Shown piece by piece: positions 243 to 23,745 of a DNA stretch of 23,745 bases. The position numbers and the translations under genes were made by a program. The notes under the pieces are model-generated. The model saw nothing but the letters and a program-made list of their open reading frames with translations, ran no database searches and was not told where the DNA came from. Within the stretch, counting starts at the first letter, position 1. Each line of letters begins with the position of its first letter. Location: positions 1 through 23,745 of IMG/VR virus record IMGVR_UViG_3300045921_000147. The stretch is one strand, 5' to 3'. The DNA is from a virus.

Positions 243-695
243 CTATTTCAAATGTCCGTAAATTTCATTAATTTCACTTTTTATAATTCTACCTTTTATA
301 TTGGTAGTAGATATTCCTTTAGTATATGGAACATACTTCATTTCTATGTTGTTGTCAAGTAGAAATTTGTGGTTAATGTTAAGTTGTTCTAATAATGAAT
401 CTCCCGTCCAATCATCACCATGTAAAATATAATCTACATTATAGTTTATAATATACTCTGGCTGTTTTTCAAAACTTTCCATTATGAATGCTTCTGATGT
501 ATATTTACATGATTGAACCATTATAAGTCTTTCGTGCTGGTTCATAATTGGTAATCTTTTTTTATAGAACTTTACGAATTCATCCGAGTTAACTGCAACT
601 ATTACTTCGTCGGCAATATTTTTAGCATTTTCAAGTAGTTTGACATGGCCTGGATGAAAGCAGTCGAAAGTTCCGCCTACGTATATTCTTTTCAT
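243..695 (-). CDS. HxGH nucleotidyltransferase, glycerol-3-phosphate cytidylyltransferase-like (TagD/RfaE-C type)
   Basis: A 150-residue cytidylyltransferase of the nucleotidyltransferase superfamily. The N-terminus GGTFDCFHPGHVKLL carries the catalytic HxGH at residues 14-17. HGDDW is at 92-96, and the second family signature GISTTNIKGRI is around 127-137. Family members couple CTP to a phosphorylated small alcohol or sugar (glycerol-3-phosphate, phosphoethanolamine, heptose-phosphate type) to make a CDP-activated precursor. TagD is about 130 residues, so this protein is slightly longer. The substrate cannot be fixed from motifs alone. The ATG overlaps the stop of the upstream transferase as ATGA, so translation is probably coupled. 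It probably feeds an activated group into the glycan made by the surrounding transferases. Confidence 0.88.
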   Translation of the reverse strand: MKRIYVGGTFDCFHPGHVKLLENAKNIADEVIVAVNSDEFVKFYKKRLPIMNQHERLIMVQSCKYTSEAFIMESFEKQPEYIINYNVDYILHGDDWTGDSLLEQLNINHKFLLDNNIEMKYVPYTKGISTTNIKGRIIKSEINEIYGHLK

Positions 696-1351
696 AATCT
701 AGCTCTGTATGTTTTTTTTACGTGACCTAAATCTCTTAAATTAGAACTTAATAGATATTCATTGTATCCTTCTATAGTAAGAATCATACCTAATATACGT
801 TCCATAGACATTGATTGATTTTTATTTGTGGGAACGATTTTATCAAGACCTTTATCAATTAATTCTTTTATTATATTCGATCTAATTACTAAAGAAGAAC
901 CTATTAACATTGTAAAATTATCAGTAATATAAGGTGACCAATACGAATTTAGTATTTGTTGTTTAGACCACTCTATATCTTCACCAGATAATGCAATCCA
1001 GGACTGCATAGTACCAATACAAGCTGTTACCGGCTTACTAAATGGGTCAAAGGGTGATATTACTTCACATGAATCGTGAAATAAAATATAATAATCGGCT
1101 TCATAATTTTTTACTGCATAGTATAAAGCACCAATTTCGTAATTTTTATTTTGTATATTAGCAATTTCACATTTTGTATTTAGTTCGGAAAAATGTTCTG
1201 TAAATGCGGAGTTGCTGTCCACCACTAAAATTTTATGGTTATTGGTTGAAAAATTTTTACGAATACTATCGATACAGGCATTTAGCATGCCTACATCATT
1301 AACACTTTCTATTTTAGATGGTATTACCCATTGAACTGTGCTCTCTTCCAA
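692..1351 (-). CDS. GT-A fold glycosyltransferase-like protein (TTG start)
   Basis: A 219-residue protein that looks like a divergent GT2-type transferase. An N-terminal segment WVIPSKIES is followed by a Rossmann-like strand KILVVDSNS, and ADYYILFHDSCEVI stands where the metal-binding DxD is expected. Here that motif is HDS, so the metal site is atypical or absent. The start codon is TTG at 1351, supported by GGAG 8 bases upstream; no in-frame ATG occurs before residue 22. The start lies 28 bases inside the end of the upstream gene. The C-terminus is basic (KKTYRARL). The family is uncertain, and the role in glycan assembly is inferred mainly from context. Confidence 0.7.
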   Translation of the reverse strand: MEESTVQWVIPSKIESVNDVGMLNACIDSIRKNFSTNNHKILVVDSNSAFTEHFSELNTKCEIANIQNKNYEIGALYYAVKNYEADYYILFHDSCEVISPFDPFSKPVTACIGTMQSWIALSGEDIEWSKQQILNSYWSPYITDNFTMLIGSSLVIRSNIIKELIDKGLDKIVPTNKNQSMSMERILGMILTIEGYNEYLLSSNLRDLGHVKKTYRARL

Positions 1352-2040
1352 TATTCAAACTCCGTAAGACTGGGAAACTCTTTTATATCACCATATACAT
1401 CCAACAACCCCGTACCAAATTGGTTGTAGTTGTTTCCGTCAAAAGGTTTCACTGCTGTATAGTTATTCCACTTCTGTAATATATAAGCTTTATTGTATAA
1501 ATTTATATTCTTATCTTTATTATAAATAGTTTTACTAGTTAAACTTTTATTTAAATCTGCACTGTACCCCAGAGATATCACTTTTTTATTCATTAATTTT
1601 GATCTGTATTTATAATCGTCGTCTTCGCAAGTAACATATACAAAATTCTCATCAAACTCACCTACATCTTCCCAAAACTTTTTTGTTATACCAAACAATG
1701 AAAATTCAAATGAACGGTCATAGGCGCCTGCTATTGTGTTATCATTAGTTTCATCCCATATATGGTCTAACATATCATTAGTAAATTGAGCATCGTCTTG
1801 CCCAATTATAATTTTATCCAAATTCAAATATTCGAATGCAATTTTACAAATTAAATTCCAACCACCCGCACATCCTATATTTTGAGTGGTAGTGGCCACT
1901 ACAAGATTTTTAATATTATTAGGAACTACTTGCTGACCATTATCTACTATATGAAAATCATAACCTAAAAAGTTTTCTGGATTAAACCAAGAACTAAGAT
2001 ATTCTGATCCAATATAACTTAAAATAAACACATGTTTCAT
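1324..2040 (-). CDS. GT2-like glycosyltransferase
   Basis: A 238-residue protein with a compact GT-A plan. It has an N-terminal strand (MKHVFILSYIG), then DFHIVDNGQQ, which resembles the nucleotide-binding VVDNGS strand of GT2 enzymes, then TQNIGCAGGWN, matching the usual N-x-G-x-xGG-N segment. IIIGQDDAQFT supplies an Asp-Asp pair at the DxD position. A later acidic cluster, VTCEDDDYKYR, resembles the ED catalytic-base region of GT2 enzymes. It would transfer a sugar from a nucleotide donor in the cytoplasm; no membrane segment is seen. It starts with ATGA overlap on the GT9 stop and overlaps the next gene by 28 bases. Confidence 0.8.
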   Translation of the reverse strand: MKHVFILSYIGSEYLSSWFNPENFLGYDFHIVDNGQQVVPNNIKNLVVATTTQNIGCAGGWNLICKIAFEYLNLDKIIIGQDDAQFTNDMLDHIWDETNDNTIAGAYDRSFEFSLFGITKKFWEDVGEFDENFVYVTCEDDDYKYRSKLMNKKVISLGYSADLNKSLTSKTIYNKDKNINLYNKAYILQKWNNYTAVKPFDGNNYNQFGTGLLDVYGDIKEFPSLTEFEYWKRAQFNG

Positions 2041-2927
2041 CGTAGTTTCTCTATTGTAAATTTTATAATTTCCAATACTTCTTTATCAGTAGCGAATGGA
2101 TTTATACTAGTATGATTTCCATTTGGAAAAAAATATTTAGGCCCCAATTTTGGTTCTACTATTTTTTTAAATAATCCATTGTAACCATATAATTGATATA
2201 TAAAATCTGTTGTTATTATTGTAGGAATTGTTTGACAGCCAGCAGCTATATTAGATAATCCACCCTCTGCACCAATATACAATTGACAAGATTTAATTAA
2301 TTGTGCAGTTTGATATAATGACAGATCTCCGTTTTTTGGTTCAAGATCAAACTGAGAACTGTATTTTGCCCCAACTTCAATAAGATTAACCTTTTCATTT
2401 TTTTTCAGTTCAGATTTTATCCACTCGATATTTCTCTTTTTTCCACCGTAACCCATATTCGGGACATCTATTCCCCGTTCGTATTCTTCTTTGGTAAATA
2501 AAAAACAACGTTTTTCCCAATCCAATCCGACCGCAATGTTAATCTTATCAGTTTTTATATATTTCGATACTAAATCATTGTCAACAGATATATCTACTAC
2601 AAATTCTGATTCAAAATCAGAAGTTATACCGGCTTGCTTTTGAAACTCTATAGTGGGTACTTCGCATAATGAAAGTCCACCCAATTTAATTATTTTGTCG
2701 TATTCTGAAATGTATTCATCTGATATCCAATCGCCGGGTGATGGGGTCGGTTGTTCAAAATATAGAACATTATCTATGTATTGTTTTTCAAGTAATGGTA
2801 CTACTTGTGGAAATCCACATAAAAAATCTATTGTTGAGTGTGTATATTGTTTTTTAAGTACACGTGCAACAGATGACGCAAACAATATATCACCGAAATA
2901 ACCATACGTAACAATTAATATCTTCAT
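2037..2927 (-). CDS. GT9 (heptosyltransferase-like) glycosyltransferase
   Basis: A 296-residue GT-B protein of the ADP-heptose:LPS heptosyltransferase type. The start MKILIVTYGYFGDILFASS matches the N-terminal I-x-G-D-x-L-x-S pattern of GT9. The C-terminal donor-binding part is seen as SLYQTAQLIKSCQLYIGAEGGLSNIAAG, the usual region in which GT9 enzymes contact the sugar nucleotide (quoted here in two parts: SLYQTAQLIKSC and LYIGAEGGLSNIAAG). The length is a little short of the 320-350 residues of bacterial WaaC/WaaF. In bacteria these enzymes build the LPS inner core; in a phage the acceptor is unknown. It overlaps both neighbours as ATGA. Confidence 0.85.
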   Translation of the reverse strand: MKILIVTYGYFGDILFASSVARVLKKQYTHSTIDFLCGFPQVVPLLEKQYIDNVLYFEQPTPSPGDWISDEYISEYDKIIKLGGLSLCEVPTIEFQKQAGITSDFESEFVVDISVDNDLVSKYIKTDKINIAVGLDWEKRCFLFTKEEYERGIDVPNMGYGGKKRNIEWIKSELKKNEKVNLIEVGAKYSSQFDLEPKNGDLSLYQTAQLIKSCQLYIGAEGGLSNIAAGCQTIPTIITTDFIYQLYGYNGLFKKIVEPKLGPKYFFPNGNHTSINPFATDKEVLEIIKFTIEKLR

Positions 2928-3658
2928 TCTATTGTTCCATAGTTAGTGCTTTTAATCCATCTCAAGTTTTTAATTTCCGGTATTACATTTGATATTTCTA
3001 CAGAAGTAAAATCAAAATTAGAAATTCCAAAATTTAAATAATCACTAAAGTTCAACAACATCTGACGACCAGCATAAAAATCCGTCCATTTAGTATCACC
3101 GGGAGAGGGACAATTATCCTTATGATTTAATATCCAAAATGTGCCAACTTCATTTCGTTTAACCGGAATATTGTAATATTTAAGTCTTTCTCGTATATCT
3201 TCATCCTCATTTCCCCAACCTTTATATAAGTGATTAAATCCATTTATTTTTATGAATTGATTCTTTGTCATGCAAAGTACGCCCCCATAAAAATTAGGAT
3301 CAATTTCATTTATAAAATTTTTATATCCAGCTGGAATATCTGATATATCTCGTAATCCCAAATCATCAGTAAGAAAAACTCCTCGTTTAGCCGGTAACAA
3401 AGCATAATTTTCATTAAATTTATATGAAACGTCATCTGACGGTATATAATCTACCTGATGAAATATGAATTTATCCCCGCGAGCATATTTAGCCCCCACG
3501 TTTTGCACACAGGATATCTGAAAATTATTCATATCATCTTGTTCAGATACTATAATTTCATAATCCTCAGGGCCTGATTCAAACACGCTTTCTAATCTTG
3601 GTAATAAATACTGTAGATGAGATTCTCTATCTCTATATGGAATTATAATACTAATCAT
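2924..3658 (-). CDS. Beta-1,4-galactosyltransferase-like enzyme (GT2 N-terminus, GT7-type C-terminal motif)
   Basis: A 244-residue transferase. It begins ISIIIPYRDRESHLQYLLP (residues 2-20), close to the PYRDR/H start of beta-1,4-galactosyltransferases. FHQVDYIPSD at about 66-75 stands where animal enzymes have DVD, but the first Asp is Gln. YGGVLCMTKNQFIKINGF (124-141) leads into YKGWGNEDEDIRERL (145-159), the GT7 hallmark GWGxEDxD that binds acceptor and holds the catalytic Asp. A later His (LNHKDN, 179) may serve as metal ligand. Known relatives transfer Gal or GalNAc to GlcNAc or xylose. There is no signal peptide or membrane segment, so it acts in the cytoplasm. It overlaps the methyltransferase by 8 bases. 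Confidence 0.85.
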   Translation of the reverse strand: MISIIIPYRDRESHLQYLLPRLESVFESGPEDYEIIVSEQDDMNNFQISCVQNVGAKYARGDKFIFHQVDYIPSDDVSYKFNENYALLPAKRGVFLTDDLGLRDISDIPAGYKNFINEIDPNFYGGVLCMTKNQFIKINGFNHLYKGWGNEDEDIRERLKYYNIPVKRNEVGTFWILNHKDNCPSPGDTKWTDFYAGRQMLLNFSDYLNFGISNFDFTSVEISNVIPEIKNLRWIKSTNYGTIE

Positions 3659-4301
3659 TTTTAATATACACCCATTTATCTATTACAGATAGATCGGATT
3701 TAATGAAATTATTGTTAAATATTTCTTTTTCAATAATACTCATATCCATCCAATTCATTTCTGTATTATCTAGAGCAAGAAATCCCGTTGGAAGTATTCT
3801 TGGAGCGAAAAACTTTACTTCTTCTAAAACAATATCAGTATTATGTTGGCCGTCTAAATGTACGAGAGAATAATCTGAACGTATTTGCTTTTCACCAGAA
3901 AAATAATCGGGAATGCCGTCTGAAAATCTATGCATAAATTCCGAACTTTCTAAGTTAAAAAACACAAAGTTTACAGTTTTGTCAAGCGAATTTAAATATG
4001 AATAAAAGTTAAACAAAGTAGTTTTACGTTTTTCATTAGTGTAATCTAATCTTCTTATAGTGGTTCCTTCACTATATGGAATATTACCATATGGATCAAT
4101 TGCTATAAACAAATCGTCAAAACTGTAATTTCTGCCACTTATCATAGACATGGTGCCTGTACCATTTCTAAAACCTACTTCCACAAAAATTCCAGTTGGA
4201 GCAAGACCCGATAATTTTGAAAGACATTCATATTTTTCAAACGGGCCATCACCGTGTAAATTATACAAATTTGTAAGTTCGTTATATTGTTGGTTATTCA
4301 T
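3651..4301 (-). CDS. Class I SAM-dependent methyltransferase (Methyltransf_24-like)
   Basis: A 216-residue protein with a clear AdoMet fold. Motif I is IFVEVGFRNGTGTMSM (residues 38-53), the acidic residue of motif II is in FIAIDPYG (D69), and HLDGQHNTDIVLEE (148-161) matches the DGxH metal or catalytic segment of sugar and macrocin-type O-methyltransferases. PTGFLALDNTE completes the fold. Relatives methylate hydroxyls on sugars or small molecules, and context suggests a glycan O-methyltransferase, possibly capping or protecting the sugar chain. This substrate is inferred. The gene overlaps its neighbours by 8 bases on each side. Confidence 0.85.
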   Translation of the reverse strand: MNNQQYNELTNLYNLHGDGPFEKYECLSKLSGLAPTGIFVEVGFRNGTGTMSMISGRNYSFDDLFIAIDPYGNIPYSEGTTIRRLDYTNEKRKTTLFNFYSYLNSLDKTVNFVFFNLESSEFMHRFSDGIPDYFSGEKQIRSDYSLVHLDGQHNTDIVLEEVKFFAPRILPTGFLALDNTEMNWMDMSIIEKEIFNNNFIKSDLSVIDKWVYIKND

Positions 4302-5094
4302 ATTGTTTCCAGTTTAAAATTCTATCGTATTGATGTACTATACAATACTGCTTTGCATCTTCGTAATTAAATTTCACTCTACCTTCGTTAATAACATGCA
4401 AATGTACTGCAAAATAATGTGATAAGTTTGTAAATAAAACTTGCTTATTATATTTTGTTTGTATTAAGTAATTGAAAGCTGTTTGATCAGCAACTTTAGA
4501 CTTTCCAGATGCAATCAAATAAATATCTCTTGATATTTCTTTTACTAGCGAAACAGAACCACCGAATACACCTACATTATATACTAGCTTATTCTCAAGT
4601 AACTGAAATCCAGGAATACCAAGAGTGTGTAGTAAATGCTGAGAATTCCACATATGATCTTTATACTTTATCTCTTCACTGCTGACAATCAATAGATCTG
4701 GTGGTATTAAGTCGAATGGATTTTTGTTAAAGTAAACATCACGAATGTCTGTAATTAAAACCGAATTATATAAGTCACAGGTAGTTTCTAGAAAATTCCA
4801 TATATGAAAAAATCTAACATTATGAACTAAATTATATGATGATTTTTCATCACAGTTGGCCGTATTCCATTCAAATTGGGTGACTAAATTTCCATAAAAA
4901 TCAAAATCAGGACTTATTACGGATACAGAATTGCTATCTAAAAACTCTACAACTTCATCAACGGGTGATGTATCGGTTTTATATAAAAACAATACTCTAT
5001 CAATATTTTCAAAGTTATTAGAGCTTTTAACCCAATTATAAATGTCAGAAACTTTATAATTCGAGCTTATAGCACCTATTAATAAATTTTTCAT
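4294..5094 (-). CDS. Putative glycosyltransferase with DxD motif
   Basis: About 266 residues from the preferred start. The frame stays open to an ATG at 5127, but the internal ATG at 5094 forms an ATGA overlap with the preceding stop and gives a natural start MKNLLIGAISSNYK, so I use it. The centre has YNSVLITDIRDVYFNKNPF. DIRD there is a DxD-type motif followed by an acceptor-like D-V-Y-F-x-x-x-P-F segment, as in GT8/GT77-like and nucleotide-diphospho-sugar transferases. YNVGVFGGS and ADQTAFNYL then match the downstream G-G and D-Q-x-x-x-N segments of the same superfamily. It probably moves a sugar in the cytoplasm. The exact family is not certain. Confidence 0.75.
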   Translation of the reverse strand: MKNLLIGAISSNYKVSDIYNWVKSSNNFENIDRVLFLYKTDTSPVDEVVEFLDSNSVSVISPDFDFYGNLVTQFEWNTANCDEKSSYNLVHNVRFFHIWNFLETTCDLYNSVLITDIRDVYFNKNPFDLIPPDLLIVSSEEIKYKDHMWNSQHLLHTLGIPGFQLLENKLVYNVGVFGGSVSLVKEISRDIYLIASGKSKVADQTAFNYLIQTKYNKQVLFTNLSHYFAVHLHVINEGRVKFNYEDAKQYCIVHQYDRILNWKQYE

Positions 5095-5801
5095 ATTTTT
5101 TCCCAGTCGATTCCAGGTGATGCCCATTCAGGTATACAATGCGTTGAATATCCAGGTATCGGTGTAATTAAACTAACACCATTATCTCGTAGTGTAATGA
5201 ATGCTCTCAAATCTTCTGGGTATGATCCCACCGTAAACATATCCCACACATTCCAATCTTTGATCAATTGTTTTCTTGTAGTAGCAAAGGTCATTGTAGT
5301 ACTATTTGTAAGTTTCCAATGTGTAGATTTAGTACGAAATACTTTCGTCACTTCACCGCCGTCTTCATCTATAAAAATATTGCCTCCTTTTATGGCAGGA
5401 ATGTATTTATCAAAATGATCATACAAACTGACATAATCTGCGATCTCAATTCCTTCTAACAAGACTTCTTTTGAATTATTTAAATGTAAATAATCATCTT
5501 CTAGAAAATATATTACGTCTTCATCGTCGAACTGTTTTGCATACTCTGCTACATATCGCCAAGATTGTGCAGAACTTCCACCTGTATAAAATGTAAGTTT
5601 TCCAAATCCATATGAATTATCGAAACTTGTTACCATTTCTCTAGTGTTTTGCACTAAATTTGTTTCATCTACGAACAAATGAATGTTCTCTCTGCCGAAT
5701 ACATTCACCGCATTCATTAAACAATGTTGTTTTGTTGCATGAGGATATTTAATTCTTACATATCCATTATCAGACAGTCTATAAAGAATTATCAACGACA
5801 T
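5091..5801 (-). CDS. GT-A glycosyltransferase-like protein
   Basis: A 236-residue protein of GT-A type. The N-terminal strand is MSLIILYRLSDNGY. The acidic donor and metal motif is VIYFLEDDYLHL at about residues 95-106, where EDDY replaces a canonical DxD. Downstream, SYPEDLRAFITL provides another acidic pair where a catalytic base could lie, and SLITPIPGYSTHCIPEW ends the domain with a His often used as metal ligand. No signal or membrane segment is visible. The ATG overlaps the GDP-mannose dehydratase stop by one base (TAATG). Donor and acceptor are unknown; its role is inferred from fold motifs and operon context. Confidence 0.75.
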   Translation of the reverse strand: MSLIILYRLSDNGYVRIKYPHATKQHCLMNAVNVFGRENIHLFVDETNLVQNTREMVTSFDNSYGFGKLTFYTGGSSAQSWRYVAEYAKQFDDEDVIYFLEDDYLHLNNSKEVLLEGIEIADYVSLYDHFDKYIPAIKGGNIFIDEDGGEVTKVFRTKSTHWKLTNSTTMTFATTRKQLIKDWNVWDMFTVGSYPEDLRAFITLRDNGVSLITPIPGYSTHCIPEWASPGIDWEKI

Positions 5802-6829
5802 TATAAATTACCTTCATTAGAGTATACGACTATCATCTCATCAATCATATCTTCGAAAGTGTATTTAGGCGACCATCCTAAAACTTTTCTAGCTTTAGAA
5901 GAATCTCCACACAGTCTACGAACATCTTCTGCTCTATAAAATTCTGGATTTATAATAACATAATCTTCGTAGTTTCCTAGTCCAACTTTTTCAAACACAT
6001 ACTTACATAATTCACGCACCGAGCGGCTTTCGCCCATAGCTATTACATAATCGTCGGGTCTATCCTGTTGTATCATTAACCACATAGCTTCTACATAATC
6101 TTTAGCATGGCCCCAATCACGATATGAATCTAAATTACCGAGCTCTAACTTATCAAGTTTGCCCGCCCTAATAGCTAATGCTCCACGAATAATTTTTGAT
6201 GTAACAAAGTTGTGGCCCCTACGTGGACTTTCATGATTAAATAAAATACCACTACAAGTATAGAGATTAAATGCTCTTCTATACATCTGAGTGGTATAAT
6301 GTGCAAATACCTTTGAAACAGCATATGGTGATGCGGGGGCAAATGGAGTATTTTCATCCTGAAGTAATACATTATTAGAATCTTCTATCAGTATTACGTT
6401 TTTTGTAGAGTTACCAAACATCTCGGATGTTGACGCTTGATAAAACTTAGTAGATGGTGATTGAGTTCTCAAAACTTCCAATATAGCTGCAACAGCTGTT
6501 GCGTTGGTCTCGGTTGTAGCAAGGGGCATATCATAACTAATTCTAACGTGACTTTGAGCTGCTAAATTATAAAATTCATGGGGTTGTACTTTTAATACAG
6601 CTTGTTCAATTGACAACGTATCCGTTACATCACCCCACAAAAAATGCAGTTTCTTGAACGCCTGGGTTGAAATATGTGCTAACTTACCAAGAGTTGTTTG
6701 ATCGTTTAAGTCATAAAAATTTCTACGAGGTATAATACACCATACCTCGTATTCTTTTTCTAGTAATAGTTCTGCCAAGTAACTACCATCTTGGCCTGTT
6801 GCTCCTGTTATAATTGCTCTCTTAGGCAT
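5801..6829 (-). CDS. gmd: GDP-mannose 4,6-dehydratase
   Basis: Converts GDP-D-mannose to GDP-4-keto-6-deoxymannose, the precursor of GDP-fucose, GDP-rhamnose and related sugars. The 342-residue protein starts MPKRAIITGATGQDGSYL with the GxxGxxG NADP loop at residues 9-15. STSEMFG (133-139) holds the active-site Thr/Glu. SPYAVSK has the catalytic Y169-x3-K173. LFNHESPRRG (197-205) and LGNLDSYRDWGHAKDYV (230-246) are strongly diagnostic of this enzyme. I place the start at 6829, with GAGAG a few bases upstream and an 8-base overlap like other genes here, instead of the ATG at 6850. Compared with usual members there seem to be about 11 extra residues between MFG and TPF. The second-step enzyme (fucose synthase or rhamnose reductase) is not visible in the window. 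Confidence 0.95.
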   Translation of the reverse strand: MPKRAIITGATGQDGSYLAELLLEKEYEVWCIIPRRNFYDLNDQTTLGKLAHISTQAFKKLHFLWGDVTDTLSIEQAVLKVQPHEFYNLAAQSHVRISYDMPLATTETNATAVAAILEVLRTQSPSTKFYQASTSEMFGNSTKNVILIEDSNNVLLQDENTPFAPASPYAVSKVFAHYTTQMYRRAFNLYTCSGILFNHESPRRGHNFVTSKIIRGALAIRAGKLDKLELGNLDSYRDWGHAKDYVEAMWLMIQQDRPDDYVIAMGESRSVRELCKYVFEKVGLGNYEDYVIINPEFYRAEDVRRLCGDSSKARKVLGWSPKYTFEDMIDEMIVVYSNEGNL

Positions 6830-7448
6830 TGATTCTCTCGTATTTTTCATTTTGTTTTTCTTGACGATCTATTGTTTTATTGTGAATTATTGCATATTCA
6901 GGTTCAGCGGGAAATACTGTATATGTCTTAAACCCCGTAAGTTTTTCGTGTACAGCACGTTCCCATTTAATATCAGGCAAATTTCTATACAATCTACATT
7001 GATAATCCGGCCATTGAATGACATCACCAACATGCTCTATATGAGTAACAGTCCAATGCCACTTACGGATATGATCATCGGTAATACCGTATACTTTATT
7101 CAGTCGAGGAAACCATGCAGCTTCAAACGTTGGTTCGTCTTCTATTATTTCGAATATATACTCATATAATTCTTCTGTCAAGTGTTCGTCTGCATCTAAG
7201 TTTAAAATCCACTCGCCTGAACATTTGCTGTTTAAAAAATTCTTTTGTTGTGCAAAATTATCATTTAAACTATGTTTATGAATGGTGACTGCGTTTGACC
7301 ATGCATCTAATATAGAAAGAGTGACAGGATCATCAGAAAAGTCATCTACAATCACTATTTCTGTGTTTGCTCTTTTTGGTATACTACTCAATAACTGAGC
7401 AATATACGGTCCTTCGTTTTTAGTTAGAATCGCGTAAGACAGCTTCAT
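6822..7448 (-). CDS. GT2 glycosyltransferase
   Basis: A 208-residue family 2 transferase. The opening MKLSYAILTKNEGPYIAQLL matches the A/C-x-I-x-x-K-N-E start of LPS-core and WaaE-like GT2 enzymes. EIVIVDDFSDD (residues about 30-40) is the nucleotide-binding strand, and WILNLDADEHL (about 80-90) is a clear LDADE DxD motif. WERAVHEKLTG near the C-terminus resembles the acceptor region of WaaE-type beta-1,4-glucosyltransferases. The protein is shorter than the usual 250 residues and has no membrane anchor. It overlaps the upstream GT4 by 29 bases and the dehydratase by 8. Confidence 0.88.
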   Translation of the reverse strand: MKLSYAILTKNEGPYIAQLLSSIPKRANTEIVIVDDFSDDPVTLSILDAWSNAVTIHKHSLNDNFAQQKNFLNSKCSGEWILNLDADEHLTEELYEYIFEIIEDEPTFEAAWFPRLNKVYGITDDHIRKWHWTVTHIEHVGDVIQWPDYQCRLYRNLPDIKWERAVHEKLTGFKTYTVFPAEPEYAIIHNKTIDRQEKQNEKYERINA

Positions 7449-8766
7449 TTTCTTCTACATTAACCTTTTTAAGTTTTGGTAATTCAATCTTTTTAAGATT
7501 TGGAAGTTTTATTGGTACTTGTACCGCAAACTTAGGAACAACTTGCTCAACCAATTCTTTGGTTTTCTGGAAAATTGCTTCATACGAAAACTTCTGTCTA
7601 TTTTCACGAGCAAGTTTCTTTGCACCTGGTAACAAGGTATCGTAGTTTTCAAATGCATAAGCCATCATATTAATTGCTTGTGATGGATCAGGCATAAACC
7701 ACATACTTTCTTTTAATATAACATTATCCCACGCTGCTGATGGGTGAACATTTTCAAGCTTTCCACCGACGAGAAGTGCATCGTTTGTATTTAAGAAATC
7801 AAGATGTCCTGACCACCCAGACGCAATGATTGGTTTTTCACTTAACGATGCTTCTAATAATGGACGACCAAACCCTTCTCCGTGCGTCAAACTAATATGA
7901 ACCTTTACCTTTGGATGATTATATAAAGAATTCATTTCAGACTCAGTAAGTTCACCATGCAGTAAATATACGTTTGGAGCATTTGGTCCAACTTGATCAC
8001 GAATTTCTTTAATACGTTTCAATATATGTTCACGGTCGATTACTGAGAATCCTGCCCCAGAAGTCTTTAACAAGAGTGCTGGTTGTTTAGATTTTACAGT
8101 ATTCTTGAAGGTTTCACAGAAAAGTCTAATAAGCAAACCAACATTCTTTCGGTCATGCCCAAGATCACCCTTCAGCCAGTGACCAACAAAGAGATATACA
8201 AACTTTTCTTTAATCTTCAACATCACATCATCAATACTTCTTTCTAACTTGTGTTGTACACCGAAAACATCTGTATGAACCGCGTTATGTAAAACTCGGA
8301 TTGGAACACGAACTCTTTCTGTTTTTACAACATTTCCAGCTTGATCACGAAATTCTGCAACAGTTTGTTCAAATACACGTTTACTGTGTTCTGAAATAGT
8401 CCAAACTTCGTTCATACGGTTACACCCTTCAATCCACTGTAAACTACATGCGGTAGTTTCAATACCAGCAGTTATACCAATATTAAACTTTCCAATTGGT
8501 TGAAATTCGTTTGGAACAGAAATCTGAACAAACAAGTCTGGTTGACGATCCAACGGACCTTGAAGAATTCTGTTAAGAATTTCTACATGCTTTAAGTTTT
8601 CTCCGTCTAATGCATTGAGGGGAGTCATGCCCCAACCCATACTAACTAGTTTAATGTCATATAGATCAAGTTCAATAAAATGACTGACAATATCTCTGGC
8701 CATATCACCATACCCGCTTCGGGTTGCGAATGGTCCTTGTATAACACATAATGGTTTGTTACTCAT
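7420..8766 (-). CDS. GT4 glycosyltransferase
   Basis: A 448-residue GT-B transferase. The N-terminal domain begins with CVIQGPFATRSGYGDMARD, a typical start for this group. The C-terminal donor domain has KFVYLFVGHWLKGDLGHDRKN (the start of the second Rossmann unit, around 188-208) and ISLTHGEGFGRPLLEAS, which carries the E-x7-E pair that binds the nucleotide sugar. The end is a Lys/Pro/Leu-rich tail with a short repeated pattern (LPNLKKIELPKLKK) that could be a membrane- or partner-binding peptide. It forms a pair with the second GT4 upstream, from which it is separated by a small phage gene and a homing endonuclease. It overlaps the 89-residue gene by 8 bases. Confidence 0.9.
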   Translation of the reverse strand: MSNKPLCVIQGPFATRSGYGDMARDIVSHFIELDLYDIKLVSMGWGMTPLNALDGENLKHVEILNRILQGPLDRQPDLFVQISVPNEFQPIGKFNIGITAGIETTACSLQWIEGCNRMNEVWTISEHSKRVFEQTVAEFRDQAGNVVKTERVRVPIRVLHNAVHTDVFGVQHKLERSIDDVMLKIKEKFVYLFVGHWLKGDLGHDRKNVGLLIRLFCETFKNTVKSKQPALLLKTSGAGFSVIDREHILKRIKEIRDQVGPNAPNVYLLHGELTESEMNSLYNHPKVKVHISLTHGEGFGRPLLEASLSEKPIIASGWSGHLDFLNTNDALLVGGKLENVHPSAAWDNVILKESMWFMPDPSQAINMMAYAFENYDTLLPGAKKLARENRQKFSYEAIFQKTKELVEQVVPKFAVQVPIKLPNLKKIELPKLKKVNVEENEAVLRDSN

Positions 8767-9028
8767 CTATAACCTCTTCATAAGTTTGTTCAAAAATATC
8801 TGTTTTACATGGATAATATTCTCCAGCTACACCCCGAATAATCCAGTCTGTTAGAGCGCCTATCGTTGTTCCTTCTAATGTTTCGATATACACAACATAC
8901 TGACCATCAAAAGGTAGCTGCTCAATATGATACTTACTCTTTCCTAAAAAATTTATAATTTCATCTTGATTAGATTCTTTAATTTGAACAGCTTCTACTA
9001 TTACTGGTTTTTTTCTAAACTTTGGCAT
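8759..9028 (-). CDS. Conserved small phage protein of unknown function
   Basis: An 89-residue protein I recognise as a widespread phage and prophage type. It starts MPKFRKKPVIVEAVQI and ends with a conserved block ADWIIRGVAGEYYPCK-like segment; here it reads TDWIIRGVAGEYYPCKTDIF, followed by an acidic tail. The function is not known in any relative I can recall. It is small, soluble and lacks a signal or membrane segment. It lies between a GT4 and the homing endonuclease, which hints that it may have moved together with the endonuclease and may have nothing to do with glycan synthesis. The gene starts two bases after the endonuclease stop. Confidence 0.75.
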   Translation of the reverse strand: MPKFRKKPVIVEAVQIKESNQDEIINFLGKSKYHIEQLPFDGQYVVYIETLEGTTIGALTDWIIRGVAGEYYPCKTDIFEQTYEEVIDE

Positions 9029-9029
9029 G

Positions 9030-9773
9030 TTATAGATCTCTCCAAGTTTTTCTTAAAACTATATCACTTATATGATCAGGATTTAATCTGTATTTGTGTG
9101 CCAATTGTATCTGTTTAAACTGGCCAGTTTCCCAATCCTTTCTAATGTTAAGAACAATTTCTTCTGTAATTTTCCTACTTCTAGGAGCTATACTTTTTAT
9201 TTTATGAAGTTTTCTTTGTTCTTCACTCATGGTTTGCCAACGCTTCACGCCAGCAATTTCTAAAGATTTTTTATGAGATGTACTTAATTCTTTGCCTTTC
9301 CAAAATGAGGATTTTGACTTGTGAAGTTTCATATAATCCTTATCTTCTTTTTTATGAGACCAAGTTTTTATATTAGATTCTTTTATACGATTTTTATGTT
9401 CTTTAGATTTAGTCTTTCCTTTTCTCACAGTACTCATTTTATTAATTGTTTCAACAGAGTGTTTTTTACCTCGCATAGCTGCATCAGATTCAGTACCCAT
9501 ATTAAAACAATCCGGTGTTCCTACGTAAATTTTCAGTAATTTATTTTCTGATTCCGCCAATAGGTTAGGTTCCAATCGTTCCAATATTTCTATCGCAAAA
9601 GCGTCTTCTCCATATTTATTCCACGACGATTGCAAGTGTTTATTTGCGTGTCTGTTGTTTCTAAGTGCTGACCGATGATTTTGCCATCTATTTTTTATAT
9701 TAACACTTGATCCTATATAAAACTGACCAGTTTTGATGTTGGTTATTTTATAGATTCCACTCACGCTTTCCAT
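9030..9773 (-). CDS. GIY-YIG homing endonuclease with NUMOD3-like DNA-binding region
   Basis: A free-standing homing endonuclease of 247 residues. The catalytic domain occupies about residues 4-90: SGIYKITNIKTGQFYIGSS supplies the GIY and YIG strands, N26-IKNRW the conserved Arg, and LQSSWNKYGEDAFAIEILE the N/E part. The middle is rich in Lys/Ser/His with two NUMOD3-like blocks (GKKHSVETINKMS and GKTKSKEHKNRI) that would lie in the DNA minor groove. The C-terminal 40 residues (EEIVLNIRKDWETGQ through HISDIVLRKTW) look like a helix-turn-helix. It nicks or cuts a related intron-less or gene-less allele to spread itself. Its ATG lies 13 bases inside the end of the upstream GT4, so it uses the operon for expression. 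Confidence 0.93.
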   Translation of the reverse strand: MESVSGIYKITNIKTGQFYIGSSVNIKNRWQNHRSALRNNRHANKHLQSSWNKYGEDAFAIEILERLEPNLLAESENKLLKIYVGTPDCFNMGTESDAAMRGKKHSVETINKMSTVRKGKTKSKEHKNRIKESNIKTWSHKKEDKDYMKLHKSKSSFWKGKELSTSHKKSLEIAGVKRWQTMSEEQRKLHKIKSIAPRSRKITEEIVLNIRKDWETGQFKQIQLAHKYRLNPDHISDIVLRKTWRDL

Positions 9774-11227
9774 ATGTCAAATCTCTTTCGAGGTGACCAA
9801 TTTTTCAATACTTCTTCAAATCCTTCAATAAAACCATTACCCATTTCTGTTGTCGTAAATTTATTTTCTATTGCATATTCACGACCAAGTTTACCACGAC
9901 GAGTACGTTCGTCCTTTGACATATCAAAGATTTCTCTCATTGCTTTTGCAGAGTCTTCATATGAAGGACGTTCATCGACGATATATGGTGTAGGGACAGA
10001 GCCTATAAGCGAACGATTACTTGGAAATAGTGGAATAGCCCACTCACCATGCGTAGTATACTTTTTGACGCTATTTGTTAGGAAATTCTTATTAAAATGT
10101 ATATTTTCGTTTAATAAGTTACCGTTTTCATCACGGAATCCCATTTGGTCTTGCAATCCGCCTGTAACAGTTGCTATAATCATACTACCAGCCATTATTG
10201 CTTCCATTGTAGCCAATCCAAATCCTTCATTGGATGACATATTAATCGTAACATCTGTAATGTTATACAATAGATTGAGCTTGTGTGTTGGCAAACCAGG
10301 ATTGCTGTAGATAATAAGTTTTTCACATTCAGGCAATACATCACGAACTACAGCCGGCAAGTCTGTTCCATTATCATCAACCGGCGCGGTGTGCATTATT
10401 AATCGAACTTTATTTTTCTTTTCTTTTGGTAAATCAGCAACAAACTGCTTGAATGCCCATAACACATCACCAGTAGACTTGCGACGAATATTTCTATTGT
10501 TGTAGAGAATTGAAAATTCTACATCTTCATCTTTAAACAACTGTTTACGCATTTCAACTAATTCAGCGTCATCCTCTGGAACTGGCTTAAAAATATTTGA
10601 ATCTACACCGTGTGGGAGATACTTTAGTTGCCAATCTTTAATATCATCGCCCTCTAATACAATACGGTTTAAGTTGTGGGTTTGCTTACTAATAGCAAAT
10701 AATGCATCGACTGAACGATAATAGTTTTTATTGTACAATGGTGGTGGTGGTGCATCCCATATATTGTAGAACACGATTGGTACTACTTGACGAAGTTCGT
10801 GTTCCATCTCAAATAACCAAATCCAGTATCTTGGATCAGTAAAGATCATAAGAATATCTGGTTTATATGCCATTAATAATTGACGAACAACTTGTTGATT
10901 TCCATAACCATTAAATGGTACTATTATAAGTGACGCATCCTTCACACCAGAAGCTTCTGAAAGTGCCTGTGAAGCGTCTACAATTTTACCTGCTTCTGGG
11001 TGTTGTACAGCAGCTCCCAACTGCACCCAGTTATACCGATGTGCTGTATTTACTACAATTTCACGGGACATTGTTCCAACGCCCGAATGCATTCTCAAAT
11101 CATCGGAAAGTAATAAAACAGTTTTACGTTCTGCTTTTGGTAAGTAACCTTCTTTTGTAACCTCTACCGTATGATCGGCTATATCTCCGATACTCTGTGC
11201 AGTAGGAATATCAATATCTATACTCAT
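9761..11227 (-). CDS. GT4 glycosyltransferase (large)
   Basis: A 488-residue GT-B transferase, the largest of the operon. The N-terminal 35 residues are an extra acidic or polar extension before VLLLSDDLRMHSGVGTMSRE, which is the true GT-B start. The second domain has FSILYNNRNIRRKSTGD (start of the donor domain) and INMSSNEGFGLATMEAIMAG with the E-x7-E donor-binding pair, then IATVTGGLQDQM. DPRYWIWLFEMEHEL, about 130 residues in, is a segment of the acceptor domain. It resembles the other GT4 in layout but differs clearly in sequence. It directly follows the RHH gene (TAATG overlap), making it the first enzyme gene of the operon. Confidence 0.9.
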   Translation of the reverse strand: MSIDIDIPTAQSIGDIADHTVEVTKEGYLPKAERKTVLLLSDDLRMHSGVGTMSREIVVNTAHRYNWVQLGAAVQHPEAGKIVDASQALSEASGVKDASLIIVPFNGYGNQQVVRQLLMAYKPDILMIFTDPRYWIWLFEMEHELRQVVPIVFYNIWDAPPPPLYNKNYYRSVDALFAISKQTHNLNRIVLEGDDIKDWQLKYLPHGVDSNIFKPVPEDDAELVEMRKQLFKDEDVEFSILYNNRNIRRKSTGDVLWAFKQFVADLPKEKKNKVRLIMHTAPVDDNGTDLPAVVRDVLPECEKLIIYSNPGLPTHKLNLLYNITDVTINMSSNEGFGLATMEAIMAGSMIIATVTGGLQDQMGFRDENGNLLNENIHFNKNFLTNSVKKYTTHGEWAIPLFPSNRSLIGSVPTPYIVDERPSYEDSAKAMREIFDMSKDERTRRGKLGREYAIENKFTTTEMGNGFIEGFEEVLKNWSPRKRFDIWKA

Positions 11228-11397
11228 TATATATTTACGCTCCCTGAAAGTGAACCTGAAAAATCAGAAAGGAACAGTTGCTCCATATAGCGACTTATCT
11301 TTAATCCCCTAAGGTCGCAATACCGAGTCAAATGTTCCTTTATGTCTCTACGAATTTGTATAGTAGAGTAATACTGCTTTTTGTTTTTTCTACTCAT
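11227..11397 (-). CDS. Ribbon-helix-helix (Arc/MetJ/CopG-like) small DNA-binding protein
   Basis: A 56-residue basic protein from the preferred ATG at 11397. KQYYSTIQIRRDIKEHL has an alternating beta strand typical of the paired DNA-contacting ribbon, followed by two helices (RDIKEHLTRYCDLRG and KISRYMEQLFLSDF) separated by a short turn. RHH dimers bind palindromic operators and often repress their own promoter. The frame is open to an ATG at 11421, but that ATG lies at or upstream of the start point predicted from the promoter just before it; ATGs at 11403 and 11397 fit better, and no good Shine-Dalgarno is visible. It is the first gene of the glycan operon and overlaps the GT4 as TAATG. A role as operon autoregulator is inferred. 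Confidence 0.7.
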   Translation of the reverse strand: MSRKNKKQYYSTIQIRRDIKEHLTRYCDLRGLKISRYMEQLFLSDFSGSLSGSVNI

Positions 11398-11424
11398 AAA
11401 CATAACCGTTAAGGTGTACATTTA

Positions 11425-11454
11425 TATATAGTAGAATTCTACGAAAAAAGTCAA
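11425..11454 (-). promoter_or_regulatory. Sigma70-like promoter of the glycan operon
   Basis: Reading the minus strand, TTGACT (11454-11449) matches five of six bases of the -35 consensus. An 18-base spacer leads to TATATA (11430-11425), which matches five of six bases of the -10 consensus. The -35 box begins four bases after the stop codon of the nuclease gene, so the element sits in the only real intergenic gap of this area and would start transcription near 11418. The gene behind it is the RHH regulator followed by the glycan genes. Confidence 0.6.
11431..11442. promoter_or_regulatory. Candidate operator: perfect 12-bp palindrome between -35 and -10
   Basis: GTAGAATTCTAC is a perfect inverted repeat. 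It occupies the whole 3' part of the promoter spacer and abuts the -10 box, so a protein bound here would block RNA polymerase. The first gene downstream encodes a ribbon-helix-helix protein, a class that binds short palindromes as dimers. The palindrome is directly visible; its use as that protein's operator is inferred. Confidence 0.5.
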
Positions 11455-11457
11455 TTT

Positions 11458-12342
11458 TTAAACACCCTCAGTACAATGAATTGTATTTCTGAACGGACAA
11501 TATTTACAATTTGATTTAGAAGGCGTAGCAACTACTTGGTCATTATATTCACCAGTACTAGTAAAACATTCTTCTAAAAAGTTTTGAAAACTAGACCATG
11601 CCTTATTTATTGAAGGGGTTCCATGCGATGGTTCAAATTTACTAAGGCGGAGAATAGTGAAGTCAGCATTTTCTGCAATCTTGCGTTTGAGGATAAGAAA
11701 ACGTGGAATAATATTCTTCTCATCTACTCCAAACTGTTCTGCATAAAACTTCTTATATAGAAGAATTTGATTAATCTTTTTTGGATCTTTTTTCTGGTAT
11801 ACCCACCCAGAACGTGAAGTTTTTAAATCGTAAATATAATACAAATCTTTTGTGGTGTCGTGAATCACCAAATCAATGTAACCAATATAATTAATGTGAT
11901 CATTAAGTTGTACTTCAAGAGGGATTTCACAACCAACTAGTTTATGACCTTGTGTTGGAAAAAATGCTTTTGCATGTGAACGTACATGATCTAGAATAGC
12001 ACATCCATCTAAATAATATTCAATTAATGTTTCTTTATCAGCAACAAATGTTCGTTCACCTGTTTGTTCATTTAAGATACTACGTTCTTTAAACAATTCT
12101 TTTAAACGATCTTTGAACGGAATATGTAGGTCTATTAATTTTGCTTTCTTTTCATTTTCAAAATGCTGATGTAACCACTCTTGGATAACCTCGTGCATAG
12201 CAGTACCAAATACAGTGTCCATTGAATCTGAAAACTGATCTAGTTTATCAACATATTTCAATTTCCACTGCTTTGGACAAGTAAGCCAAGTACTATATTG
12301 AGAATATGAAACTTTCTTGGGTTCTATTAATTCTTCTGACAT
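11458..12342 (-). CDS. PD-(D/E)XK nuclease, Cas4/RecB/AddB-like with four-Cys Fe-S motif
   Basis: A 294-residue nuclease of the PDDEXK_1 type. The N-terminus SYSQYSTWLTCPKQWKLKY has the S-x-x-x-W-x-x-C-P start with the first Cys at 22. The active site is seen as GYIDLVIHD and YYIYDLKTS, the D...D-L-K pattern, and a preceding conserved Glu lies in the GCEIPLEV segment. The C-terminal C279-x2-C282-x7-C290 completes a four-Cys cluster as in Cas4 and AddB, where it holds a 4Fe-4S centre. GTAMHEVIQEW contributes the G-x-x-x-H metal ligand. Such phage enzymes are probably 5' or 3' exonucleases in recombination or DNA turnover. It is the last gene of the replication block and follows the metallophosphoesterase by one base. 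Confidence 0.88.
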   Translation of the reverse strand: MSEELIEPKKVSYSQYSTWLTCPKQWKLKYVDKLDQFSDSMDTVFGTAMHEVIQEWLHQHFENEKKAKLIDLHIPFKDRLKELFKERSILNEQTGERTFVADKETLIEYYLDGCAILDHVRSHAKAFFPTQGHKLVGCEIPLEVQLNDHINYIGYIDLVIHDTTKDLYYIYDLKTSRSGWVYQKKDPKKINQILLYKKFYAEQFGVDEKNIIPRFLILKRKIAENADFTILRLSKFEPSHGTPSINKAWSSFQNFLEECFTSTGEYNDQVVATPSKSNCKYCPFRNTIHCTEGV

Positions 12343-12343
12343 T

Positions 12344-13072
12344 TTAAGTTAGTTTAATGTTTATAATATTACCGTTATTATCTTCAGCGGCAATAGTTAG
12401 ATTTTCTACAATATCACCGCAGTTTATATAATCTAATCCATCAATCTGCTTTACACAAGGGGCGTGTATATGACCGCATATTACACCATCAAAATTATTT
12501 CTTTTTGCTTCTGATATTAGAACATTTTCAAAATTTCCTATATACATTGCGGCATCTTTTACTCGTTTCTTTATAGCTGCTGAAAAGCTCCAGTACTTTT
12601 TAATTCCCAGTGATCTTCTAATTTTATTTATCCAGAAATTAAATTTGACAATCATATTGTAAAGTATTGCTCCCAATTTTGAAATAAATGGGTGCATCTT
12701 TACAACTTCATCAAATTGATCTCCGTGAGTAATATAGTATCGTTTACCGTTTAATCCAATATATTGGTCGTCCATTTTAATTTCAATAGTATCAAACTTT
12801 GATCCAATTAACTCACGGACTACTTCATCGTGATTACCTGGTATGTAGATAATCTTAATTCCTTTACGAGATAATTTTAATAAATGTTGAATAAGAGCTG
12901 TAGTTTCACGATTCCAACGAATACCGTTTCGCATTACCCAAATATCAAAAATATCTCCAACTAGATAAATCGTGTCTGCTGTATTTGACTTTAAGAATGA
13001 CAAAAGTTCAGCGGCATGGCAGCCAGCTGAACCTATGTGAATGTCAGAAATAAAGAATGTTTTGTAATGCAT
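12344..13072 (-). CDS. Calcineurin-like metallophosphoesterase, LpxH/YbbF-like
   Basis: A 242-residue enzyme with the full metallophosphoesterase motif set: ISDIHIG (D10, H12), LVGDIFDIW (D40), IPGNHDE (79-83), THGDQFD (H116) and GHIHAPC (200-206). The order, the short length and the helical insert around 125-180 (MHPFISKLGAILYNM, WSFSAAIKKR) match UDP-2,3-diacylglucosamine hydrolase LpxH, about 240 residues, in which that insert forms the lipid-binding lid. Other members of COG2908 have different or unknown substrates, so a lipid A step is possible but not shown. It lies between a small membrane protein and a Cas4-like nuclease, so a nuclease or nucleotide-phosphate role is the alternative. 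Confidence 0.85.
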   Translation of the reverse strand: MHYKTFFISDIHIGSAGCHAAELLSFLKSNTADTIYLVGDIFDIWVMRNGIRWNRETTALIQHLLKLSRKGIKIIYIPGNHDEVVRELIGSKFDTIEIKMDDQYIGLNGKRYYITHGDQFDEVVKMHPFISKLGAILYNMIVKFNFWINKIRRSLGIKKYWSFSAAIKKRVKDAAMYIGNFENVLISEAKRNNFDGVICGHIHAPCVKQIDGLDYINCGDIVENLTIAAEDNNGNIINIKLT

Positions 13073-13073
13073 A

Positions 13074-13298
13074 TTACCACGTTGTTGAATCTATAGGAAT
13101 ATTTGTGAATATCCTGCACGTTACAGTCGATGTATCCAACCCTCGTCTAAGATAATCAAGTTTTATAGAATCTAAATATGGTTTATAAATTGGATTATCC
13201 TCACACTTTAACTTGGGTGATGTCGGTAGATAAACACAAGCAATCATCAACAAAATTACTACTACCACAGTGATTAAATTTATCCATCGTTGGCTCAT
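13074..13298 (-). CDS. Small protein with one N-terminal membrane segment
   Basis: A 74-residue protein of unknown function. After a short start with one Arg, residues about 6-25 form a hydrophobic helix (INLITVVVVILLMIACVYLP), followed by a polar domain with three more Cys positions in total (C21, C32, C61). The end of the helix, MIAC, only loosely resembles a lipobox, so an inner-membrane anchor is the safer reading. GAGAAA lies about 5 bases before the ATG. Upstream is a 24-base inverted repeat. The polar domain probably faces the periplasm (inferred). No family recognised. Confidence 0.6.
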   Translation of the reverse strand: MSQRWINLITVVVVILLMIACVYLPTSPKLKCEDNPIYKPYLDSIKLDYLRRGLDTSTVTCRIFTNIPIDSTTW

Positions 13299-13311
13299 AA
13301 TATTTCTCGAT

Positions 13312-13335
13312 TATAATACTATTATAAGTATTATA
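13312..13335. repeat. AT-rich inverted repeat with 9-base arms
   Basis: TATAATACT (13312-13320) and AGTATTATA (13327-13335) are exact inverted repeats around a 6-base centre. The right arm covers the stop codon of the 84-residue gene. On the minus strand TATAAT occurs within it, but no -35 box is found at a proper distance. There is no T-tract after it, so it is not a terminator. It could be an operator or a weak mRNA hairpin. Confidence 0.5.
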
Positions 13336-13585
13336 TTATGAAATCTTTCACGTTATTGCTTTCGTCTGTTTCTTCTTGCTTCTCGTTATCGGCGTTTATA
13401 TTGGACAATCTTTTAAAGGATCTCTCTAATTCTTCTATACGTTTATCCAAATCTGATTGGTCGGTTACCTTTTCGAATAAATCATAATAATAACTGTTAT
13501 TCATCTGTAAGGTAACGTGGAATAGTCCCGGAGCATCTTGAATCAAGAAATAAGGATTACCAGCTTTAGATCTACCTTTAATCAT
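13331..13585 (-). CDS. Hypothetical protein, 84 residues
   Basis: No family recognised. The first half looks like a small beta-rich fold (GNPYFLIQDAPGLFHVTLQM) and the second half is a charged helix that may form a coiled coil (DQSDLDKRIEELERSFKRL), ending in a disordered acidic tail with many Asn/Glu. The gene starts with ATGA overlap on the stop of the gp62-like gene, so it is probably translated together with the clamp-loader small subunit. A role at the replication fork is possible only by context. Confidence 0.6.
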   Translation of the reverse strand: MIKGRSKAGNPYFLIQDAPGLFHVTLQMNNSYYYDLFEKVTDQSDLDKRIEELERSFKRLSNINADNEKQEETDESNNVKDFII

Positions 13586-14031
13586 AACTTTAATTTTTTA
13601 ATTTTTTTAGCGTCTGTCCCGTAGGATTCAAGAAGTTGTTTGAGGTTTGACTTACCTGTGGGAGTTGCGTAGAAAATGTTGAGGTATTCTTGAGCCTCAT
13701 CTGTTCCCACCATGTAATGCGATGCAACGATTTCAACCACCCAGCTTTCATAGTTCGTTTCATCTTTGGCACCCTTAATATATTTGTTGTATTGTTTACC
13801 ACGGGGAAGAATATCAGCATACACTTTAAAGAGTTCTTTACCCTTTATCTGATTATAAAACATTTGAACTTCGTTCACAATTGGTACAAAGTTCATATTC
13901 ATACTAATGAACCTATTGATCATATAATCAGACCACGTTTTTTTATCTACGTCATTTAAAGTTTCATAATATTTTAAATTTTTTGACGTAAATACTGCAT
14001 TTACGTGATCAAATAAACTTTTCTGTTTCAT
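13582..14031 (-). CDS. gp62: Clamp-loader small subunit, T4 gp62-like
   Basis: A 149-residue protein that I match to T4 gp62 by segment order. TWSDYMINRFISMNMNFVPIV corresponds to the gp62 region with Y-S-K-F-M-V-E-N-A-L-S (here residues about 32-52). The following ILPRGKQYNKYIKG corresponds to the VPRGKRYGKW segment, and VVEIVASHYMVGTDEAQEY to the IIKLLAKRYQVNTNDA helix. The C-terminus is Lys-rich in both. With gp44 it forms the pentameric loader that opens and places the sliding clamp. T4 gp62 is 187 residues, so this version is clearly shorter, mainly at the N-terminus. The ATG overlaps the previous gene by 23 bases and has no clear Shine-Dalgarno. Confidence 0.75.
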   Translation of the reverse strand: MKQKSLFDHVNAVFTSKNLKYYETLNDVDKKTWSDYMINRFISMNMNFVPIVNEVQMFYNQIKGKELFKVYADILPRGKQYNKYIKGAKDETNYESWVVEIVASHYMVGTDEAQEYLNIFYATPTGKSNLKQLLESYGTDAKKIKKLKL

Positions 14032-14200
14032 CTGATGTTTCTATTAAAGTTTCTCTAATAGAATCTAATAGACTTTCTTGATCCTGTAAAGAGGGATCTT
14101 TTGATTTAAAAATCAAATCCCAATTTTCTCTAAAAGTATCCCAACTTACTGAGAGAGGACGAGGAGCATCACCTTTTCCATTTTGTACTGTGTCAGACAT
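14009..14200 (-). CDS. Hypothetical protein, 63 residues
   Basis: A small acidic protein of unknown function. It begins MSDTVQNGKGDAPRPLSVSWDTFRENWD; the G-K-G-D-x-P-R-P segment (residues 8-15) is common at the start of short phage proteins. The remainder is predicted helical and polar. It ends 23 bases inside the gp62-like gene, so its translation may feed initiation of that gene, which lacks its own ribosome site. No domain seen. Confidence 0.55.
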   Translation of the reverse strand: MSDTVQNGKGDAPRPLSVSWDTFRENWDLIFKSKDPSLQDQESLLDSIRETLIETSDETEKFI

Positions 14201-14202
14201 AA

Positions 14203-14481
14203 TTAAGCTGGATAATAAATTTCCTTAGACTTTGGTAATTCATCTCTTCTAATCAAGTTTAACGCAAATTCTGCGTCAGACTTATAAATTTCTACAATTT
14301 GTCTTCCTTCATTTGTGGGAATTTCTGCTACACGTCCCATATTATACAAAGCACGTTCTAATTCATCTATATAATGAAATAATATTGGGAACTGTGTATA
14401 TGACTCTTCATCCACGCCTGTAGGATAACCTTTCTTCATACGTTCACGAATTTGATCTACTTTAGTTGCTAAAACTGACAT
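14203..14481 (-). CDS. Hypothetical protein, 92 residues
   Basis: No family recognised. The protein seems largely helical, with a charged N-terminal helix (KVDQIRERMKKG), a middle helix pair (FHYIDELERALYNM and EGRQIVEIYKSDAEFALNLI) and a short Pro/Tyr end. No Cys or catalytic motif is visible. It lies between the zinc-ribbon gene (4-base gap) and the 63-residue gene (2-base gap) inside the clamp-loader section, so it is expressed with the replisome genes. Confidence 0.6.
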   Translation of the reverse strand: MSVLATKVDQIRERMKKGYPTGVDEESYTQFPILFHYIDELERALYNMGRVAEIPTNEGRQIVEIYKSDAEFALNLIRRDELPKSKEIYYPA

Positions 14482-14485
14482 TTTA

Positions 14486-14773
14486 TCACTCCGTAACTAG
14501 TTGAATTTTCTTTTTTTGTGGAACATTTGACGATTGTATATTGCTTTCCCGTTCAACTTCTTTCTGTGGAAGAAATGCCTTGTTTACATTTCCACAGGCA
14601 TTACACGCAAATACTGGTATAGCAGCAATCTCATCTTGACCTGTTCGTGAAAGAATTGCCGGTACTTTTTTTAAAATAACCACCTGCGTAAAAGTTGCAT
14701 TGTTACACTTTTCACAGGTAATTGTTTCAAGATCTTGAATGTTAACATTTATGTTTGATGGGGTATTATTCAT
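14486..14773 (-). CDS. Small zinc-ribbon protein
   Basis: A 95-residue protein with two CxxC knuckles: C20-EK-C23 and C57-NA-C60, separated by a beta-rich stretch (TFTQVVILKKVPAIL). This is the layout of a treble-clef or zinc-ribbon domain binding one zinc. Flanking regions are polar and probably disordered, with a Lys-rich end (QKKKIQLVTE). AGAGG lies four bases before the ATG. Its position right after the gp44-like gene suggests a DNA- or protein-binding accessory role, but I know no characterised relative. Confidence 0.7.
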   Translation of the reverse strand: MNNTPSNINVNIQDLETITCEKCNNATFTQVVILKKVPAILSRTGQDEIAAIPVFACNACGNVNKAFLPQKEVERESNIQSSNVPQKKKIQLVTE

Positions 14774-14781
14774 GCATCCTC

Positions 14782-15898: not shown

Positions 15899-15899
15899 T

Positions 15900-16109: not shown

Positions 16110-16138
16110 CTATCCTTATAAAAGGTTATATTAATGAA

Positions 16139-17501: not shown

Positions 17502-17502
17502 A

Positions 17503-18216: not shown

Positions 18217-18225
18217 AATTTCCTC

Positions 18226-18513: not shown

Positions 18514-18525
18514 AATATCCTCGTA

Positions 18526-21045: not shown

Positions 21046-21070
21046 TTTTAGTGTTGTGTAGGTTTATATT

Positions 21071-23744: not shown

Positions 23745-23745
23745 A

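Follow-up and report, generated by a model that had tools for sequence, protein, structure and literature searches.

A likely ribbon-helix-helix protein encoded at the head of a phage glycan operon is a probable autoregulator of that operon

We provide evidence that a small ribbon-helix-helix (RHH) protein, encoded directly ahead of a run of phage sugar genes, most likely autoregulates the operon behind its own gene. The gene lies in a viral record of 23,745 nucleotides (the window, by which we mean the whole stretch of DNA analysed). Our preferred reading, to which we give a probability of about two in three, is that the protein is an Arc/CopG/F55-like regulator that binds its own leader and thereby heads and limits the glycan operon. 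A dedicated self-regulating switch is probable because the arrangement recurs in about 100 related phage sequences. The observations at the base of this reading are the gene order, the conserved pairing of RHH and glycosyltransferase genes, a box specific to the leader, the uniqueness of that box in the closest relatives and the tracking of box type with RHH type. The genes concerned are as follows.

11458..12342, minus strand: PD-(D/E)XK exonuclease, the conserved upstream neighbour (PF12705, E=3.5e-21), placed alike in Flavobacterium phage immuto and most relatives
11227..11397, minus strand: RHH-type regulator gene, 56 amino acids (translation; Arc-like PHROG match; same start as the L044 protein)
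9761..11227, minus strand: GT4-like glycosyltransferase, the conserved downstream neighbour (PF00534, E=4.3e-08; phrog_2170, E=1e-21)
9030-9773, minus strand: GIY-YIG homing endonuclease within the glycan operon, directly behind the first glycosyltransferase (PF01541, E=2.9e-08; phrog_314, E=8.8e-30)
243..9028, minus strand: remaining run of glycan genes (glycosyltransferases, GDP-mannose 4,6-dehydratase, methyltransferase-like, cytidylyltransferase-like and unknown genes), whose tight spacing suggests co-regulation

Further upstream of the exonuclease are replication genes, including those for a family B DNA polymerase and a clamp loader, and transcription of the glycan genes by readthrough from upstream genes is possible. 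A preliminary description of this DNA had counted more than ten sugar genes behind the RHH gene. The run exists, but the count was slightly generous because only about 9-10 sugar or glycosyl genes are recognisable, the rest being unknowns and the homing endonuclease.

The 56-residue open reading frame (11397-11227, minus strand) has an RHH-like sequence (MSRKNKKQYYSTIQIRRDIKEHLTRYCDLRGLKISRYMEQLF...), as had been proposed. Its nearest relative is the L044 protein (MAKKNKKQYTTIQIRKDI...), with 42% identity; the alignment begins at the same start, which favours this start over an in-frame ATG at 11421. In profile searches, the window protein matched an Arc-like PHROG (E=0.005) and had no Pfam RHH match above the cut-off. 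Seven of its relatives matched the Arc-like phrog_3180 (best E=8.7e-06), and the best solved-structure profile match of the RHH family was SvtR (2kel; E=0.024). An AlphaFold model of the monomer (pLDDT 70.7) has helices at residues 17-30 and 34-46 and no assigned strand; another model, from a different alignment, was poorer (pLDDT 60.9). Fold matches of this model were mostly RHH proteins, none with an E below 0.001; the Arc-operator structure 1par ranked first at a non-significant E of 0.38, and the CopG-DNA structure was also among them. An RHH (MetJ/Arc/CopG) fold is likely, although the weakness of these profile and fold matches counts against the autoregulator reading. A type II antitoxin with an RHH domain was considered and rejected because there is no toxin gene beside the RHH gene, whose flanking exonuclease and glycosyltransferase are conserved across relatives. 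The codons for the C-terminal SGS (TCA GGG AGC; within 11227-11260, minus strand) spell AGGGAG, a ribosome-binding-like sequence before the glycosyltransferase start, and SGS- or TGS-like endings recur in the RHH proteins of relatives.

Viral contigs of relatives were gathered by similarity to the glycosyltransferase and not to the RHH protein. As queries, the window RHH protein found no relatives in viral contigs or phages and the exonuclease found none in viral contigs. An RHH-like open reading frame lay at most 600 bases upstream of the glycosyltransferase in 98 of 109 loci (those in which the glycosyltransferase could be called, window included, many of them closely related), mostly adjacent to it and often preceded by the exonuclease. 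Phage immuto has the identical order of exonuclease, RHH and glycosyltransferase as its genes 88, 89 and 90. No RHH gene accompanies the glycosyltransferase in Microcystis phage Mel-JY01 or Rhodothermus phage RM378. The preliminary description had regarded a dedicated phage-encoded repressor as unusual; this view is not upheld, since an RHH regulator is common in this phage group and dedicated control is also known for the P22 gtr operon (PMC2909390). No paper on the linkage of RHH and glycosyltransferase genes was found in a literature search of partial coverage. The mechanism is of a known kind; what is new is that an RHH gene is so widely conserved at the head of glycan operons in phages.

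The leaders of these RHH genes are rich in repeated elements. Of 95 non-redundant leaders, 72 contain TATA-N1-3-TATA, where dinucleotide-preserving shuffles give 21.7 (sd 3.8). The perfect palindromes of the 95 leaders are also longer on average than those of every one of 100 shuffles. The same element was not found in the 60 nt before the glycosyltransferase (0 of 74 loci) or before the exonuclease (0 of 72), controls with AT contents of 77% and 71%, respectively, compared to 81% for the RHH leaders. A 20-bp palindrome in the immuto leader is the longest perfect one in that 160-kb genome, and a 16-bp palindrome in the L024 leader is the longest in its 57-kb contig. This could not be extended to a general rule: in three genomes of the AT-box type (G001, G007 and G013) the palindrome of the leader does not stand out in length, which counts against the autoregulator reading.

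One alternative is that the leader element is simply the core promoter, of host or phage type, of the RHH-glycosyltransferase operon and that the RHH protein acts elsewhere. Most leader elements are indeed TATA-like and AT-rich, and TATATTTATATA is present elsewhere in several genomes. The idea of a general phage promoter was checked by counting TATATTTATATA, TATAAATA, GATACTTAT and TATAGA: the AT-only motifs turn up at other places in some genomes, while the TATAGA tandem described below does not. The AT-only boxes are also of low complexity, and this, with their recurrence, weighs against the autoregulator reading too. Six contigs each have a single copy of a longer form, ATATATGTATAGA(C/T)AAATATAA. 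The palindromic excess of the leaders over shuffles speaks against a core promoter, as does the absence of the element where the RHH gene is missing: neither box type was found at the 13 glycosyltransferase loci without an adjacent RHH gene (several of which are near-copies and one of which is cut close to its end). As element type also follows RHH type, we regard a bare core promoter as unlikely.

The closest relatives provide the clearest example of this correspondence. Six contigs (L043, L044, L045, L138, L139 and L140) encode a glycosyltransferase 50-54% identical to that of the window, and the strand of their RHH proteins reads TT(I/V)Q, similar to the STIQ of the window (T/Q type). A tandem, TATAGA-N4-5-TATAGA, with boxes about one helical turn apart, lies just before the RHH start in all six and was not found with any other RHH strand type. 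In these contigs (166.6, 64, 58, 38.7, 33.2 and 5.6 kb), the tandem occurs only at the RHH leader, again in disagreement with a core promoter; the other TCTATAGA of the L044 contig, at 26200, is inside a coding frame. In L138, a collagen-like gene of 360 amino acids (2891-3973) is inserted between the RHH and glycosyltransferase genes, and the box has stayed with the RHH gene, 11 bases before its start. The tracking of RHH type by box type is to be read as an association and not as a rate because the clades are not independent events, a point that also tempers the autoregulator reading. Three RHH proteins with a T/R strand (L072, L094 and L144) have in their leaders a common motif, ACTATTTATTA, and paired TATATA-like stretches; this motif is perhaps a third operator type.

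At the family level, then, a repeated or palindromic element lies in the RHH gene's own leader; the window itself has a TAGA-NN-TCTA core and no TATAGA tandem. The elements of its leader are as follows.

11398..11457, minus strand: 60-nt leader from the exonuclease stop to the RHH start, the putative operator/promoter region; equivalent leaders of relatives have repeat or dyad elements
11431..11442, no strand assigned: palindrome GTAGAATTCTAC with core TAGA-AT-TCTA, the candidate main operator box; unique, with a core common to L044
11423..11430, no strand assigned: second palindrome TATATATA, a possible second box; overlaps the -10-like sequence
11425..11454, minus strand: sigma-70-like TTGACT-18-TATATA, a weak promoter candidate seen in the sequence and missing from the scan list

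The 12-bp palindrome described earlier is exact, abuts the TATATA and occurs only once in the 23.7-kb record. On its own, it is unremarkable and weak evidence: the window has 16 perfect palindromes of at least 12 bp, 8 of them longer than 12 bp, and about 4% of shuffles of the 60-nt leader contain a perfect 12-bp palindrome. Palindrome length alone was thus rejected as evidence for the window. It is conceivable, if improbable, that, in the window phage specifically, the palindrome is accidental and the regulator has either diverged or been left without its site. The abundance of such palindromes and the absence of the TATAGA tandem from the window leader would fit such a history, and the latter, like the lack of conservation of the exact 12-mer, is a point against the autoregulator reading. 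Against a chance palindrome, the RHH reading frame of the window is intact and in its conserved place, and the TAGA-AT-TCTA core resembles the TAGA-AC-TCTA between the boxes of L044. A TAGA-N2-3-TCTA is expected by chance in a 60-nt leader with p ~0.002, a value that is only indicative because the motif, though taken from relatives, was chosen after the palindrome was seen. The centres of TATATATA and GTAGAATTCTAC are 10 bp apart, which is the box spacing of the relatives. Loss of the palindrome in relatives that keep the RHH gene had been named as grounds for abandoning the proposal. The outcome is mixed: relatives do not share the exact 12-mer, yet most of their leaders have a repeat or dyad element. 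Inside the glycosyltransferase gene (10501-10523), an imperfect inverted repeat, TGTAGAGAATTGAAAATTCTACA, has TAGA/TCTA halves like those of the leader palindrome and is perhaps an auxiliary site or a product of chance.

The promoter that had been proposed is not convincing. All of its parts are there, with TTGACT at 11454-11449, a spacer of 18 nt and TATATA at 11430-11425. A sigma-70 promoter was taken to need A as the second and T as the sixth base of its -10 box, plus enrichment over background. TATATA fails on the former because it ends in A, and promoter-like sites are not enriched in positions 8000-23745 of the window (60 versus 73.6 in shuffles, sd 8.0). It is a weak promoter by these measures. 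Near-perfect extended sigma-70 promoters, with a spacer of 17 and TG before the -10 box, are seen at 18399-18371 and 16007-15979 (minus strand; 12/12 and 11/12). Both sit within listed open reading frames on the same strand, which may start later or contain internal promoters.

The autoregulator reading joins these elements into a mechanism of the following kind. The 56-residue protein would be an Arc/CopG-like regulator acting as dimers, and its targets would be boxes, repeated or palindromic, that lie in its own leader at intervals of about one helical turn. The boxes would be TAGA-AT-TCTA and TATATATA in the window, the tandem TATAGA in the closest relatives and AT-only sequences in those further away. 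By covering an internal promoter, the bound protein would hold down the expression of both its own gene and the downstream glycosyltransferase operon. The preliminary description had proposed an autorepressor of the whole operon. Its outline, in which an RHH protein heads a glycan operon and has a candidate operator in its own leader, is well supported comparatively by conserved linkage, leader-specific elements, box uniqueness, the match of box type to RHH strand type, the retention of the box by the RHH gene across an insertion and the lack of a box where the RHH gene is missing; binding, repression (activation being possible), the transcription start and whole-operon control are inferred.

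The RHH protein might instead bind the leader and activate, or serve as a timing factor whose other targets lie elsewhere in the phage. Repression is the commoner mode among known RHH autoregulators, and the T/Q phages have their box at one place only. Conversely, some genomes have further matches to AT-only boxes, and two RHH proteins, AvtR (PMC5569661) and AmrZ (PMC3325190), both activate and repress. Such a role seems to us rather improbable as a replacement for simple repression, though somewhat less so than a core promoter or a chance palindrome.

A broader proposition, which we hold only tentatively, is that in a large and diverse group of aquatic phages a dedicated RHH switch is the fixed head of variable glycan cassettes and has an operator that differs from clade to clade in step with the RHH strand (TATAGA tandems, AT-only boxes and possibly a third type). 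If true, nature would have supplied a series of regulators, each co-evolved with its operator, that determine the time at which glycosylation genes of these phages are expressed. The arrangement points to timed or dosed expression of these genes by a phage-encoded protein, and the cultured phage immuto is a setting in which the switch could be tested. With some 95 regulator-leader pairs available from nature and two or more types of box among them, it should also become easier to learn how the residues of the RHH strand determine which DNA sequence is bound.

Among known systems, the P22 gtr operon likewise encodes glycosylation functions on a phage and has its own transcriptional control, but that control works by phase variation via DNA methylation and not through an RHH product of the first gene (PMC2909390). 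RHH proteins, including viral ones, commonly block their own promoter by binding repeated boxes that overlie it, and F55 of Sulfolobus virus SSV1 binds tandem ATAGATAG boxes (PMC5569661). Like the window protein, F55 and SvtR (of SIRV1) are very small viral RHH proteins, and both bind their own promoters, as we suggest here. They differ in belonging to archaeal viruses, and F55 governs lysogeny genes and several promoters, whereas the sequence here points to one site at a glycan operon. MetJ and CopG are RHH repressors that recognise boxes, repeated or palindromic, at the promoters of their own genes or of their targets; the window protein has no co-repressor domain and its box sequences differ from theirs. 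The phage P22 repressor Arc is of the same 53-residue class of phage RHH proteins, and an Arc-like PHROG is the best family match of the window protein, with 1par its top, though non-significant, fold match. The sequence similarity is marginal, however, and Arc controls the P22 immunity region, whereas here the target would be a glycan operon.
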